From positions 1 through 28,059 of the IMG/VR virus record IMGVR_UViG_3300027896_000172: a stretch of 28,059 nt of DNA; one strand, 5' to 3'. The notes beneath the pieces were generated by a model, which worked only from the letters and a program-made list of their open reading frames with translations, ran no database searches and had not been told where the DNA came from. Positions 3,861 to 11,945 of this stretch are shown here, one piece after another. The position numbers were made by a program, and so were the translations under genes. Numbering within the stretch: position 1 is the first letter of the stretch; each line of letters opens with the position of its first letter. Source of the DNA: a virus.

Positions 3861-4064
3861 TTATTTTATTTCGGAGAGTTGGATGAATTCTTCTTTCAAC
3901 GGTTGTTTCGGATTCTCCCATAGAGGTTTCCCCGAAACGGTTCTTCGGTCTATACCAGTTGTCGAATAACATCCATCATAACAATGATAAGGACCACCGG
4001 CGTCTCGTTGCCATTTCGTTGTAGGCTTCCCGCAGATAACACATTTCTTTCGTCGTTCTTTCAT
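3861..4064 (-). CDS. Small four-cysteine (putative zinc-binding) protein, 67 aa
   Basis: Starts MKERRKKCVICGKPTTKWQR and has C8-x2-C11 followed by C28-x3-C32 (YHCYDGCYS), the layout of a small zinc finger or treble-clef-like knuckle. His27 could also serve as a ligand. The tail is charged and without features. The ATG at 4064 overlaps the nuclease stop as ATGA and has AGAGGA about 5 nt upstream, so it is translationally coupled to the Cas4-like nuclease. Function is unknown. Coupling suggests a partner or an unrelated small accessory gene. Confidence 0.7.
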   Translation of the reverse strand: MKERRKKCVICGKPTTKWQRDAGGPYHCYDGCYSTTGIDRRTVSGKPLWENPKQPLKEEFIQLSEIK

Positions 4065-4985
4065 AATTCCTCTTTAGGTATGTCCGATTTAGCATCACAA
4101 TTGACTTTCTTGTGAGGGCAGTATTTACAGTTTTTTTTGGCTTTGCCGGGGTTTTTGAGATATCCTTTGGCGTCTTGAACGAAAGTTCCATCCGGATTGA
4201 AACACTCTGTAATGAAGTCAGAGAATATGTTCAATACGTCTGCCACCGTCTTCTGATTGTGTTTCGGAACAAAGGGTTGAATTCTGCTTTGTGGGAACGA
4301 CACGTTCTCATAGAGCCGTCTTTTAAGGATGAAGAACTCCACGTCAATCATGTCAATGGGAATGTTGTATTTCTTGCTGAAGAATGCTTTGTAGAGAAGA
4401 ATCTGTGAAATCTTGGCGGTGTCTTCTTTCTGATACTGATTCCAGCCCATTGTGCTTGTCTTGATGTCAATGATACGATATCGTCCTGTTGCTTTCTCTT
4501 TCAGAATGACATCAATAAAACAGATGAAGTCAACATTGTATTTGATGGGCATCACGATTTCGTCTTCCACCCCGATGAACTCAAATTTTCCCGTTGGAAA
4601 ATACTTGATTCGGTTGGTCATGTTGGTGAAAGCGTTGAGAATGTTGTTACCGTCTTCAACAAATTCAAACCATTGGTCTTGTTCGTATTTCACTTTCTTG
4701 TCAGTCAGTTCACGGAGGAATGCTTTCTTAAAGATGTCGTGTAGGTCGTGTTCATCGGCTTCTTTAGCCCCCTGTTTGTATAGGGTTTCAATATAGAGTT
4801 GAACGGCTTCGTGAATGGCTGTCCCGAAACAGGTGTGAAGGCTGTCTTCAAAGACGCGGAGGCCTTTGACGAAATCAAAGATACCAACGGTGACGGCAAT
4901 TGTACCAGTTAGAAAATTGAGAATAACTAACTCTCTTTTTTGGTGTTGCTTCCGTTGGCTCCTGTAACAAATTTTCAGTTTCCAT
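4061..4985 (-). CDS. Cas4/RecB-like Fe-S nuclease, apparently expressed by +1 frameshift
   Basis: Two overlapping frames join into a 307-aa nuclease: 4985-4878 (36 codons, ending TGG TAT CTT then TGA) and 4876-4061 after skipping one T. The first part carries SYSQFSNWYNCRHRWYL, the classic N-terminus of RecB/Cas4-type nucleases with the first Fe-S cysteine (C30). The second continues DFVKGLRVFED and FGTAIHEAV (His58), FICFIDVI (Asp158), IIDIKTST (Asp173, Lys175), QILLY (Q194, Y198) and a C-terminal C286-x2-C289-x6-C296. One N-terminal and three C-terminal cysteines is the Cas4/AddB 4Fe-4S pattern. It probably acts as a DNA exonuclease in replication or recombination. The downstream frame is also open upstream to 5020, but that N-terminus has no family resemblance. 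A promoter lies 6 nt upstream of ATG 4985. Alternatives to recoding are a real inactivating mutation or a sequencing indel. Confidence 0.82.
4875..4885 (-). promoter_or_regulatory. Candidate programmed +1 frameshift site (prfB-like)
   Basis: The minus strand reads GGTATCTTTGA, codons TAT CTT TGA in the starting frame. This matches, as recalled, the E. coli prfB site (GGG UAU CUU UGA C), where the Leu tRNA on CUU slips forward one base and the in-frame UGA is bypassed. The strong AGGGGG stimulator of prfB is absent here; the upstream bases are CACCGTTGG. Slippage gives Leu36-Asp37 and restores the family sequence exactly. Confidence 0.6.
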
Positions 4986-4991
4986 TTAACT

Positions 4992-5020
4992 ATGATAGTG
5001 TTATATTGTCGTTGTGTCAA
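4992..5020 (-). promoter_or_regulatory. Sigma70-like promoter for the Cas4-like nuclease
   Basis: On the minus strand, a consensus TTGACA (5020-5015), 17-nt spacer and TATCAT (4997-4992), with the ATG only 6 nt after the -10 box. The -35 box lies inside the 3' end of the upstream GIY-YIG gene. Its position supports 4985 as the true start and implies a leaderless or nearly leaderless mRNA. Confidence 0.6.
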
Positions 5021-5999
5021 CTTTATTTAGTTTCCAACCAGTATATTGTACTCGATGTTTATTATACAATCGAATGACACATCTCAAATGGAGCCCATAT
5101 TTTTTGCAAAAGTTTTCTAGGGTTCCAATAAAAAATGTTCCGTTTTTATGTGTAAAAGATGCTTCTCGTTTGGATAGATGTTTTGATGTATGACTCTTCT
5201 CTATTCGGAGTTTGTAGGTTTCTTTTATGTTTTCAGGAAATACGAAGTTCTCATTATACATCCCTAAATGTATCCACCCACGATTTGATTGACGAATATT
5301 AGAACATATTCCATTTATACCACATCTGTTCAACCCCCACTTTGAAACCATTTCTTTTATTTGTCCTGTAAAATACCCGTGGGCAGGATGATAAAATACT
5401 CTTACCGGAGTGGTTTTGTGTAAAATTTTTTCATATTCTGTCTTGATGTCTGTAATTTTTATTGGATATTTTCCAAAACAAACCCATCCTTTGTGGGAAT
5501 TCATACATCCATTACAGATTTTATCGATTCCACTTTTACGGAGTGAAAATTTTTCAATTAAATCCGTTCTACTTCCATAAAAAATGTTGTGTTTTGGATT
5601 GTAGAATACATATTTTCCTGTGTAATTCCAATTCTTTTCCCCTCTAAACGCATTTCCAATTTTCTTTTTTGTTTCGTCGGTGTGTTTGTATCCAAAAAAA
5701 CTACCAGCAACAGGTAAAATATTATACTTTGGAAATAAGGAATCCAAATAGAATTGCTCCCTATTAAAAGCATCATATGGACTACATATTTCTACTATTT
5801 GAAATACGAATCCATTTTTTCCATATTTATTCCACGCATTCTGTAATATCGGGTTGGTGTGTTTATGATTTTTAAGACGACTTAAATGTGATTTCCATCT
5901 GCCCCCAAATGTTCGTCTGGTTGAACCAATATAGAATTTCCCATTAAAAACATTCAAAATTTTATACACCCCACATTTTTTACATTCTCTGTTATTCAT
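5001..5999 (-). CDS. GIY-YIG homing endonuclease with three DNA-binding modules
   Basis: A 332-aa site-specific endonuclease, probably a free-standing mobile gene. The GIY-YIG domain shows GVYKILN (10-16), NGKFYIGS (19-26), GGRW with Arg34, NKYG with Tyr59 and NREQFYLD with the metal-binding Glu81. HTDETKKKI (106-114) is a NUMOD3-like helix. Then come three tandem modules at about 130-177, 200-247 and 280-325. Each has a strand with a His/Asn turn (YNPKHNIF, YHPAHGYF, THKNGTFF), a helix of type E-x2-xKxGL and a closing GW pair, resembling NUMOD/IENR1 DNA-binding repeats. The base composition is visibly more AT-rich than in neighbouring genes, consistent with acquisition. It has its own promoter and ends 15 bases before the nuclease ATG. 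Confidence 0.88.
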   Translation of the reverse strand: MNNRECKKCGVYKILNVFNGKFYIGSTRRTFGGRWKSHLSRLKNHKHTNPILQNAWNKYGKNGFVFQIVEICSPYDAFNREQFYLDSLFPKYNILPVAGSFFGYKHTDETKKKIGNAFRGEKNWNYTGKYVFYNPKHNIFYGSRTDLIEKFSLRKSGIDKICNGCMNSHKGWVCFGKYPIKITDIKTEYEKILHKTTPVRVFYHPAHGYFTGQIKEMVSKWGLNRCGINGICSNIRQSNRGWIHLGMYNENFVFPENIKETYKLRIEKSHTSKHLSKREASFTHKNGTFFIGTLENFCKKYGLHLRCVIRLYNKHRVQYTGWKLNKVDTTTI

Positions 6000-6010
6000 A
6001 TTGTACCATA

Positions 6011-6039
6011 AGTATAGTCGGTTAAACCAAATCAGTCAA
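6011..6039 (-). promoter_or_regulatory. Sigma70-like promoter for the GIY-YIG gene
   Basis: On the minus strand, TTGACT (6039-6034), a 17-nt spacer and TATACT (6016-6011). The ATG at 5999 follows after 11 nt, giving a leader of about 5 nt. It lies in the 54-bp divergent region at the polarity switch. Confidence 0.65.
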
Positions 6040-6040
6040 C

Positions 6041-6048
6041 TATTTATA
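6041..6048 (+). promoter_or_regulatory. TATTTATA motif upstream of the FecR-like gene
   Basis: TATTTATA ends 5 nt before ATG 6054. The same octamer precedes the starts at 16185 and 16988 by 4 nt. It may be a late-type -10 element lacking a -35 box. The intervening GAGGT could act as a Shine-Dalgarno sequence. Confidence 0.35.
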
Positions 6049-6053
6049 GAGGT

Positions 6054-11012: not shown

Positions 11013-11162
11013 ATGGCACAAAAATTCCATTGTCCTTGGTGTGGCGTGAAAAACGATGCATCACCACCGTTTGATATCAATTGGTTTATTGAATGTTGGT
11101 ATTGTAAAAATCTTTTTGGCATGATAAGTGGGATGTTGATAAAACTAGGAAAACATTATTGA
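11013..11162 (+). CDS. Small zinc-ribbon-like protein, 49 aa
   Basis: Encodes MAQKFHCPWCGVKNDASPPF and then CWYCKNLFGM: C7-x2-C10-G and C28-x2-C31 make a minimal zinc ribbon, followed by a hydrophobic C-terminal helix. Its final codons overlap a sequence resembling the nuclease gene at 11460 in another frame, so its 3' end may have been formed by the duplication there. Function is unknown; single-ribbon proteins often bind nucleic acid or RNA polymerase. Confidence 0.65.
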   Translation: MAQKFHCPWCGVKNDASPPFDINWFIECWYCKNLFGMISGMLIKLGKHY

Positions 11163-11220
11163 ACTGAAAACGGACGGTTATGACATGGAGAAGACGCCAA
11201 ACTTTTTCATGGAACAACTA
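11161..11220 (+). repeat. Partial duplicate of the PD-(D/E)XK-like gene (copy A)
   Basis: 60 nt matching 11610-11669 at 55 of 60 positions. Translated, it gives ELKTDGYDMEKTPNFFMEQL against ELKTDSYDMERTPNFFMEQL, 18 of 20 residues identical. Weaker similarity (GGAAAACATTATTG against GGGAAGACTGTTG) extends upstream of 11161. This is the nuclease motif region without the rest of the gene. Confidence 0.85.
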
Positions 11221-11463
11221 CTACGAAATATGATGAACTTAAAGAAATCAGAAGACGCTTGGAAGGCTTACAAAAACTCTCCGTTTTATTGGAGACATGG
11301 TATTCCAGAAGACCGAGAACATATATCCTTTGAGATATTCCTTGTTGGGTGGACGGAGTGCCAACAAGAGGCATTGAAAATTCTAACATCGAGTTGGACG
11401 GGGTTGGATATGTCTATAAACTCTTGTGATTCCCATTACATAGAAAAGGTTAAGGAACTATGA
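11185..11463 (+). CDS. Hypothetical protein, 92 aa (start uncertain; N-terminus may be remnant sequence)
   Basis: Open from ATG 11185, but its first 12 residues (MEKTPNFFMEQL) are the duplicated nuclease fragment. ATG 11230 or 11233 would give MNLKKSEDAWKAYKNSPFYW, which may be the native start; neither has a clear Shine-Dalgarno sequence. The body continues WRHGIPEDREHISFEIFLVG and WTECQQEALKILTSSW, a helical tryptophan-rich protein that I cannot assign. Its stop overlaps the ATG of the next gene (ATGA). It may be a real gene fused to leftover sequence. Confidence 0.55.
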   Translation: MEKTPNFFMEQLLRNMMNLKKSEDAWKAYKNSPFYWRHGIPEDREHISFEIFLVGWTECQQEALKILTSSWTGLDMSINSCDSHYIEKVKEL

Positions 11464-11945
11464 GAGACCATTACTTCAATTTTGATGACCAGAAACGAAT
11501 TGGTGATGTCGGAGAGAATGATTTCCTCCGAATTTACGAGAGTATGGGAGCGAAGAAAAGCCTCACCGACTTCCGTATGGATTTCACCTTGAACGATGGG
11601 AAGACTGTTGAACTGAAAACAGACAGTTACGACATGGAAAGGACGCCAAACTTTTTCATGGAACAACTAACCGTTTCTGATACCGGCAGTAACTTGGGAG
11701 GACCGTGGCGTTCCAAAGAACACAACATTGATTTCTTCGTTTACTACTTCGTCAAGAATAAGGTGTTTTTTTGGTTCGCTCCCATTCCGTTGTGTGAATT
11801 TTTGAACAGGTTTGTAGAGGAAAACAAATTGAAACCGATTTCCATACCCAACAAAGATAGACGGGGTGGTTACTATGAAGCGTTGGGATTTAAGATTCCA
11901 CGAGATGTTGTAGCCTCACTCCTTATACGAGAACACAAGGTTTGA
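11460..11945 (+). CDS. PD-(D/E)XK nuclease-like protein, 161 aa
   Basis: Starts MRDHYFNFDDQKRIGDVGEN after AAGGA at the ATGA overlap with the upstream gene. The core shows Glu19 (GDVGEND), FRMDFTL (Asp37 and Asp41) and VELKTD (Glu51, Lys53), the helix-Glu then D...ExK arrangement of PD-(D/E)XK nucleases. The middle part DFFVYYFVKNKVFFWFAPIP has the buried strands of that fold. It may be a structure-specific or DNA-processing endonuclease (Holliday resolvase-like or VSR-like), but the subfamily is not clear. A stretch covering the ExK motif is duplicated at 11161-11220. Confidence 0.65.
   Translation: MRDHYFNFDDQKRIGDVGENDFLRIYESMGAKKSLTDFRMDFTLNDGKTVELKTDSYDMERTPNFFMEQLTVSDTGSNLGGPWRSKEHNIDFFVYYFVKNKVFFWFAPIPLCEFLNRFVEENKLKPISIPNKDRRGGYYEALGFKIPRDVVASLLIREHKV
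11610..11669 (+). repeat. Copy B of the 60-nt duplication, inside the nuclease-like gene
   Basis: Intact copy containing ELK of the putative active site. Five mismatches separate it from 11161-11220, and only two change an amino acid (Ser/Gly and Arg/Lys). Purifying selection after duplication, or a recent transfer from a homologue, would explain this pattern. Confidence 0.85.

Follow-up and report, generated by a model that had tools for sequence, protein, structure and literature searches.

A frame break at codon 36 of a RecB/Cas4-like nuclease gene beside a GIY-YIG homing endonuclease gene in uncultured T4-like phages

What has interrupted the reading frame of a phage nuclease gene after 36 codons, and can the ribosome read past the interruption? 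The question is raised by a 28,059-nucleotide stretch of viral DNA (IMG/VR record IMGVR_UViG_3300027896_000172), which is here called the window. On its minus strand, the open reading frame that begins with the ATG at 4985 has the sequence METENLLQEPTEATPKKRVSYSQFSNWYNCRHRWYL and then meets a TGA at 4879–4877, the codons around the break being CGT TGG TAT CTT TGA TTT. The putative slip site, GGTATCTTTGA (minus strand, 4885–4875), reads GG TAT CTT TGA, with Leu36 followed directly by UGA. A +1 slip at this point joins the 36-codon N-part, METENLLQEP...RHRWYL (4878–4985, minus; followed by the TGA), to the C-part (DFVKGLR...PKEEL; 4061–4876, minus), a PD-(D/E)XK, RecB/Cas4-like sequence in the +1 frame relative to the N-part. 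With one T dropped, METENLL...RHRWYL is fused to DFVKGLR..., and when CTTT is taken as a single leucine step the product is a stop-free protein of 307 amino acids. A preliminary description of this DNA had placed a frame break here, in a RecB/Cas4-like nuclease gene, and the present analysis agrees. The hexamer CTTTGA is common across the whole window, with 46 matches against 26 expected from dinucleotide shuffles, so that the position of the break site, and not the motif, stands out. The excess of CTTTGA is probably a matter of codon usage (TTT GAN).

The joined protein matches the Pfam domain PDDEXK_1 over residues 18–294 (E 1.6e-17) and the PHROG exonuclease families. Its AlphaFold model, made with 38 aligned relatives, has a mean pLDDT of 91.8 and a pTM of 0.86, and the best Foldseek matches of the predicted fold were AdnAB, the Cas4-family ACE1, AddB and Dna2, in addition to Exo5; solved relatives detectable by sequence were not found. 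The PD-(D/E)XK core (H58, D158, D173 and the K175 region) is present and invariant in 38 sequences. Four cysteines are present, one N-terminal and three C-terminal (C30, C286, C289 and C296), of which C30 is invariant in the 38 and all are kept in the nine closest relatives. From the modelled fold and these residues, we are confident in regarding the joined protein as a RecB/Cas4-like nuclease with a putative Fe-S cluster. It shares its predicted fold and the PDDEXK_1 domain with the RecB-family Fe-S nucleases (AddB/AdnA-B, Cas4, the Argonaute-associated Cas4 ACE1 and Dna2), but it is a stand-alone phage protein.

The two frames are one ancestral gene, since residues S20, S22, Q23 and C30 of the N-part are invariant in the 38 relatives and a predicted helix, residues 31–39, runs across the Leu36|Asp37 junction; for the same reasons the C-part alone would be deprived of conserved elements. 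The earlier statements that the joined protein has a RecB/Cas4 N-terminus with four putative Fe-S cysteines, and that the downstream frame by itself is incomplete, are upheld by these data.

For comparison, the best 80 IMG/VR loci and a second set were taken, more than 100 related phage loci in all. The frame is continuous at codon 36 in all other loci fetched (>100), and is interrupted only in the window and in L013 (IMGVR_UViG_3300020016_000176), a contig of a different metagenome; the stops flagged in L036, L037 and L221 are the normal C-terminus. Intact relatives read TGG TAT CTT GAT and similar, to which the window adds a T and L013 adds CT. Slippage by +1 at CUU-UGA would restore exactly the conserved protein, as had been proposed. 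L013 is broken at the same codon (TGG TAC CTC TAG ATT; CTA GAT TTT in the frame of the C-part), where a +2 (or −1) shift is needed and the stop is UAG, an RF1 stop. Both indels are simple tandem duplications, of T and of CT, at one codon, and in both phages the C-part is uninterrupted and neither gene carries a second lesion. In IMG/VR, a scan for C-x-H-R-W-(Y/F)-L followed by the +1 site found the slip site of the window in none of its relatives; two matches to the pattern were discarded as chance occurrences, lying in unrelated genes and in other frames. Searches of bacterial and archaeal genomes for relatives, and of the phage collection for DNA-level relatives of the locus, found none. The nearest annotated phages infect Microcystis and Flavobacterium, and the window and L013 represent two separate lineages of uncultured T4-like phages.

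The preliminary description had reasoned that related phages with one open frame and no slip site would point to a sequencing error or a lone mutation. Nearly all relatives are of this kind, but L013, which also carries a homing endonuclease gene (HEG) at this place, is broken too. An error of assembly or sequencing, or a lone mutation with no relation to the HEG, would agree with the single T added to a short T run, and there is no near-identical contig for comparison. On the other hand, the T run is only three long, and an error is unlikely when two separate assemblies show different indels in the same codon and each has a HEG next to it; we consider this explanation very improbable. The division of the gene into an N-peptide and a C-part that are made as two polypeptides, by re-initiation or an internal start, and then assemble, is more improbable still. 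Assembly of two polypeptides has a precedent in NrdA of phage Aeh1, which is split by mobE, and here each part is open, while in the two phages alike the stop marks the exact end of the N-part. However, the break lies within the predicted helix, the C-part frame of the window has no ATG, GTG or TTG near the junction, and no such codon is conserved between the window and L013. As no suitable conserved start codon exists, separate translation of the C-part by either route was rejected.

The sequence GGTATCTTTGA is identical to the E. coli prfB context over 11 bases, which include the CUU-UGA slip site and the GGTAT ahead of it. In prfB, both an SD-like element and the CTTT show hyper-conservation; the C that follows the stop is also highly conserved, and TGA is the stop in 98.6% of the motifs (PMC12421855). 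The break in the window has the slippery sequence and stop, CTT TGA, but the SD-like AGGGGG three nucleotides before CTTT is absent, the upstream bases being CGTTGGTAT, with CGTTGG just before the site; the lack of this stimulatory element had already been recorded. Moreover, the stop stands in the context TGAT and not in the prfB-type TGAC. The description of a prfB-type site thus holds for CTT TGA and GGTAT, and does not hold for the SD-like element or for the C after the stop, while the site is unique among the relatives. The 11-base match is the direct outcome of one extra T in the conserved Trp-Tyr-Leu-Asp codons: of all distinct ways to insert a single base here, just one yields CTT TGA.

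Unlike prfB, the gene in the window does not encode RF2 and its site is not conserved, and the other broken relative needs a different shift and stops at UAG, so that RF2 is not the common theme. SD-like sequences are weak before most genes of the window, and Flavobacterium johnsoniae, which rarely uses SD sequences, keeps the prfB motif with low efficiency (PMC12421855); a host of this kind might shift to some extent where the SD is absent. Even so, it is improbable that the nuclease is made by programmed +1 frameshifting of the prfB type and that its production depends on RF2 activity. The dedicated RF2-sensing switch put forward earlier is not supported, given that no relative has the site, that L013 uses UAG and that the match follows from W-Y-L-D coding and one T. 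The location of the break is better explained by two features that the preliminary description had missed, an adjacent GIY-YIG HEG and a predicted hairpin.

The HEG (5001–5999, minus) lies directly upstream of the nuclease gene and encodes a protein of 332 amino acids with a NUMOD3 motif and repeated C-terminal modules. It matches Pfam PF01541 (E 1.4e-9) and NUMOD3 (E 1.4e-9), and in alignment it keeps the Y, R, H, E and N residues of the GIY-YIG domain and the DNA-binding modules. L013 has a HEG in the same place, with 45% identity to that of the window, and both broken nuclease genes are thus directly 3′ of related GIY-YIG HEGs. The HEG status of the loci was judged only from the available flanking sequence, with the window HEG as query; a HEG search with the window protein alone gave no match, and one with a three-sequence alignment returned L010, L011, L012, L013 and distant matches. 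In two more HEG-positive lineages (L010/L011/L012 and L168) the nuclease frame is intact, which means that a phage can carry such a HEG without the break.

Upstream of the HEG there are only 54 nt (6000–6053, minus) before a divergent gene, and they hold a promoter-like stretch, TATAAATAGTTGACT, and a residual ATGG. HEG-free relatives have the same promoter-like motif, TATAAATAnTTGACA, directly before the nuclease start, and a second TTGACA in the window overlaps the end of the HEG. From these marks it follows that the HEG sits at the start of the nuclease gene, and that the nuclease 5′ end which comes after it has a start of its own. A group I intron or another known RNA element was discarded as a candidate: Rfam gave no match over the window at gathering thresholds, and no 5′ exon is present upstream of the HEG.

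Other features of the neighbourhood are of some interest. The small gene at 3861–4064 (minus) has an ATG that overlaps the nuclease stop (ATGA), an overlap kept in L013, L003 and L006; its occurrence in several phages suggests translational coupling. The small gene and its counterpart in L013, after 3905, encode paired cysteines (KCVICGK and KCFGCGK). The HEG-linked L168 (883–1626 and 1658–2545), with its intact frame, has Phe in place of the nearly constant Trp34, near the break of the other two, which is possibly an alternative way of changing the endonuclease target. Further endonuclease-like genes lie near the nuclease gene in the HEG-positive L010 (3884–4867) and in the HEG-free L002 (695–1360), and mobile nucleases may have targeted this locus repeatedly.

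The two ends of the nuclease gene show different affinities. In the tree of the C-part, the window is placed with L004 and L002, and L013 belongs to another clade behind a 100/100 branch; the presence of the HEG on this tree takes at least three changes on well-supported branches. The HEG-linked 5′ tract of the window, by contrast, is closest to that of L013. Codons 17–35 of the two phages are unusually similar, up to the break. In the shared 19-codon tract before the break (positions 18–36 in the codon comparison), 11 of the 15 codons for the same residue are identical between the two phages, against 68 of 183 (37%) in the C-part, where no segment of that length has as many as 11 identical codons. 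Such an excess of codon identity before the break was not seen in the eight other pairs compared. At the DNA level, the tract of the window is identical to that of L013 at 51 of 59 positions and to those of other relatives at 40–47 of 59. When site patterns were used to test whether the 5′ tract has a history of its own, the results pointed in the same direction, with marginal values (Fisher p 0.01–0.17).

The codon differences between the two tracts comprise four synonymous and two conservative changes (K/R and Y/F), a pattern that would fit continued selection on the protein without being proof of it; in a dN/dS attempt, synonymous sites were saturated for most pairs. The tract was either co-converted with the HEG or is constrained as DNA or RNA; in the second case, the hairpin or a DNA-binding site could account for its low synonymous divergence.

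The hairpin is predicted in the mRNA at 4877–4968 (minus), with a 5′ arm AGG-A-GCCAA... and a 3′ arm ...UUGGU-A-UCU that ends at the break, and a related shape is found in L013. The arms common to both phages are 5′ AGG-A-GCCA(A/G) and 3′ (U/C)UGGU-A-(U/C)CU, the 3′ end coinciding with the break, and two of the base pairs persist despite substitutions in both arms. Among 105 distinct relatives, the window has the strongest pairing between the 5′ arm and the W-Y-L arm and L013 the second strongest, by a statistic that was defined after the hairpin had been seen. The fold z is −3.2 for L013 and −1.6 to −1.9 for the window, which alone is not significant; by this measure they rank 4th and 19th of the 105, and z alone does not single out the window. 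The hairpins and 5′ tracts of the two phages may share ancestry, in which case they are not independent. Downstream of the break, no stimulatory RNA structure beyond shuffles was found (window 4775–4895, z 0.22; L013, z −0.85).

Taken with the linkage of both breaks to related HEGs, these features make it quite probable that the 5′ end of the nuclease gene was remodelled in connection with the HEG, with a frame break at codon 36. Whether this remodelling is accompanied by functional recoding is nearly an even question, with the balance slightly against it. In the reading with recoding, which we prefer to the alternatives, a GIY-YIG HEG would have entered the start region of the nuclease gene together with its own nuclease 5′ end (promoter-like TTGACA, start codon and codons 1–36). 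The 3′ boundary of the cassette would fall at the conserved Trp-Tyr-Leu|Asp codons, and codon 36 would most likely lie at or near the HEG cleavage and immunity site. A small tandem-duplication indel at this boundary, +T in the window and +CT in L013, would protect the phage from cleavage by its own HEG and would place a stop directly after Leu36. The frame would be rescued, at least in part, when the ribosome stalls at this stop and the peptidyl-tRNA-Leu re-pairs forward, by +1 from CUU to UUU at UGA in the window and by a +2 hop from CUC to CUA at UAG in L013. In either case the product would be the conserved W-Y-L-D protein. The hairpin, in re-forming just behind the ribosome, would perhaps favour forward movement. 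In both sequences the stop does stand directly after the last codon and a re-pairing codon is available downstream (CUU UGA / UUU in the window, CUC UAG / CUA in L013). A bolder form of the proposal, which we put forward more tentatively, is a mobile cassette that consists of the HEG and the 5′ end of its target with a recoding hairpin, and in which an indel of 1–2 nt at the cut site gives immunity and is also decoded by forward slippage.

The main rival is a scar linked to the HEG, with no functional recoding. In that case, cutting followed by imprecise repair, or escape mutations, would have left a nuclease that is inactive or barely expressed, and only the 36-residue peptide would be made. 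In favour of a scar, the indels are plain tandem duplications, of T and of CT, in a single codon next to a HEG; the L013 site is no known efficient recoding sequence and offers no strong slippery sequence for a +2 hop; and the other HEG-positive lineages avoid the break. The uninterrupted C-part says only that any inactivation is recent, and the broken cases are two only, the window and L013. Against a scar stand the lack of a second lesion in either gene, the mostly synonymous or conservative changes in the 5′ tract, the retention of the hairpin and of the ATGA overlap, and the fact that, after either indel, a codon remains on which forward re-pairing would restore the W-Y-L-D protein. A scar with the nuclease off is a real possibility, to which we would nevertheless not give an even chance.

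For HEG-linked remodelling with forward slippage, the closest precedent would be, by analogy, gene 60/mobA of phage T4 more than an RF2 switch. T4 gene 60 lies downstream of a HEG and is interrupted after codon 46 by 50 nt of non-coding sequence, an insert which the ribosome bypasses and which may have given protection from the HEG nuclease (PMC5009743, PMC3014915); the bypassing is apparently unique to T4 among related phages (PMC3014915). The two systems have in common a free-standing HEG just upstream, an early interruption of the reading frame (codon 46 in T4, codon 36 here), a stop right after the last decoded codon, a downstream codon for re-pairing and an insert possibly protective against the HEG. 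The RNA stem-loop at the T4 site may have a counterpart in the hairpin predicted here. The two systems differ in the size of the insert, 50 nt in T4 against indels of 1 and 2 nt here, with no long gap flanked by matched take-off and landing codons. Further, mobA is of the HNH type and splits a topoisomerase gene, whereas here a GIY-YIG HEG is found at the start of a RecB/Cas4-like nuclease gene; and bypass is known in T4, while recoding here is inferred from the sequence. The free-standing seg/GIY-YIG HEGs of T-even phages are also alike in being intergenic, with a modular DNA-binding tail and a position beside the likely target gene, and co-conversion of flanking DNA is expected for them (PMC2988022). 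For the T4 segs, the reported cleavage sites are hundreds to thousands of bp distant from the HEG (PMC2988022), whereas the suspected cut site here is about 120 bp away, and the window HEG, unlike these, is linked to a frame break of the neighbouring gene at that site.

If the proposal is true, the nuclease locus would provide a second, independent system of a HEG with ribosomal recoding, in which gaps of 1–2 nt are far simpler than the 50-nt bypass of T4, and which occurs in two lineages with different shift sizes. The origin proposed for the gene 60 arrangement, a protective insert tolerated through ribosome skipping, would then become directly testable. Even without recoding, the codons for the Fe-S cysteine and for W-Y-L in a phage recombination nuclease gene may be the target of the HEG, which would remodel the 5′ end of that gene.

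Elsewhere in the window, the 31 likely genes end in TAA (20) or TGA (11), and none ends in TAG. On the plus strand (about 11150–11250 and 11620–11690), a short stretch ahead of 11460, ELKTDGYDMEKTPNFFMEQL, repeats a portion of the gene that occupies 11460–11945 (ELKTDSYDMERTPNFFMEQL), as if it were a partial, broken copy of that gene.
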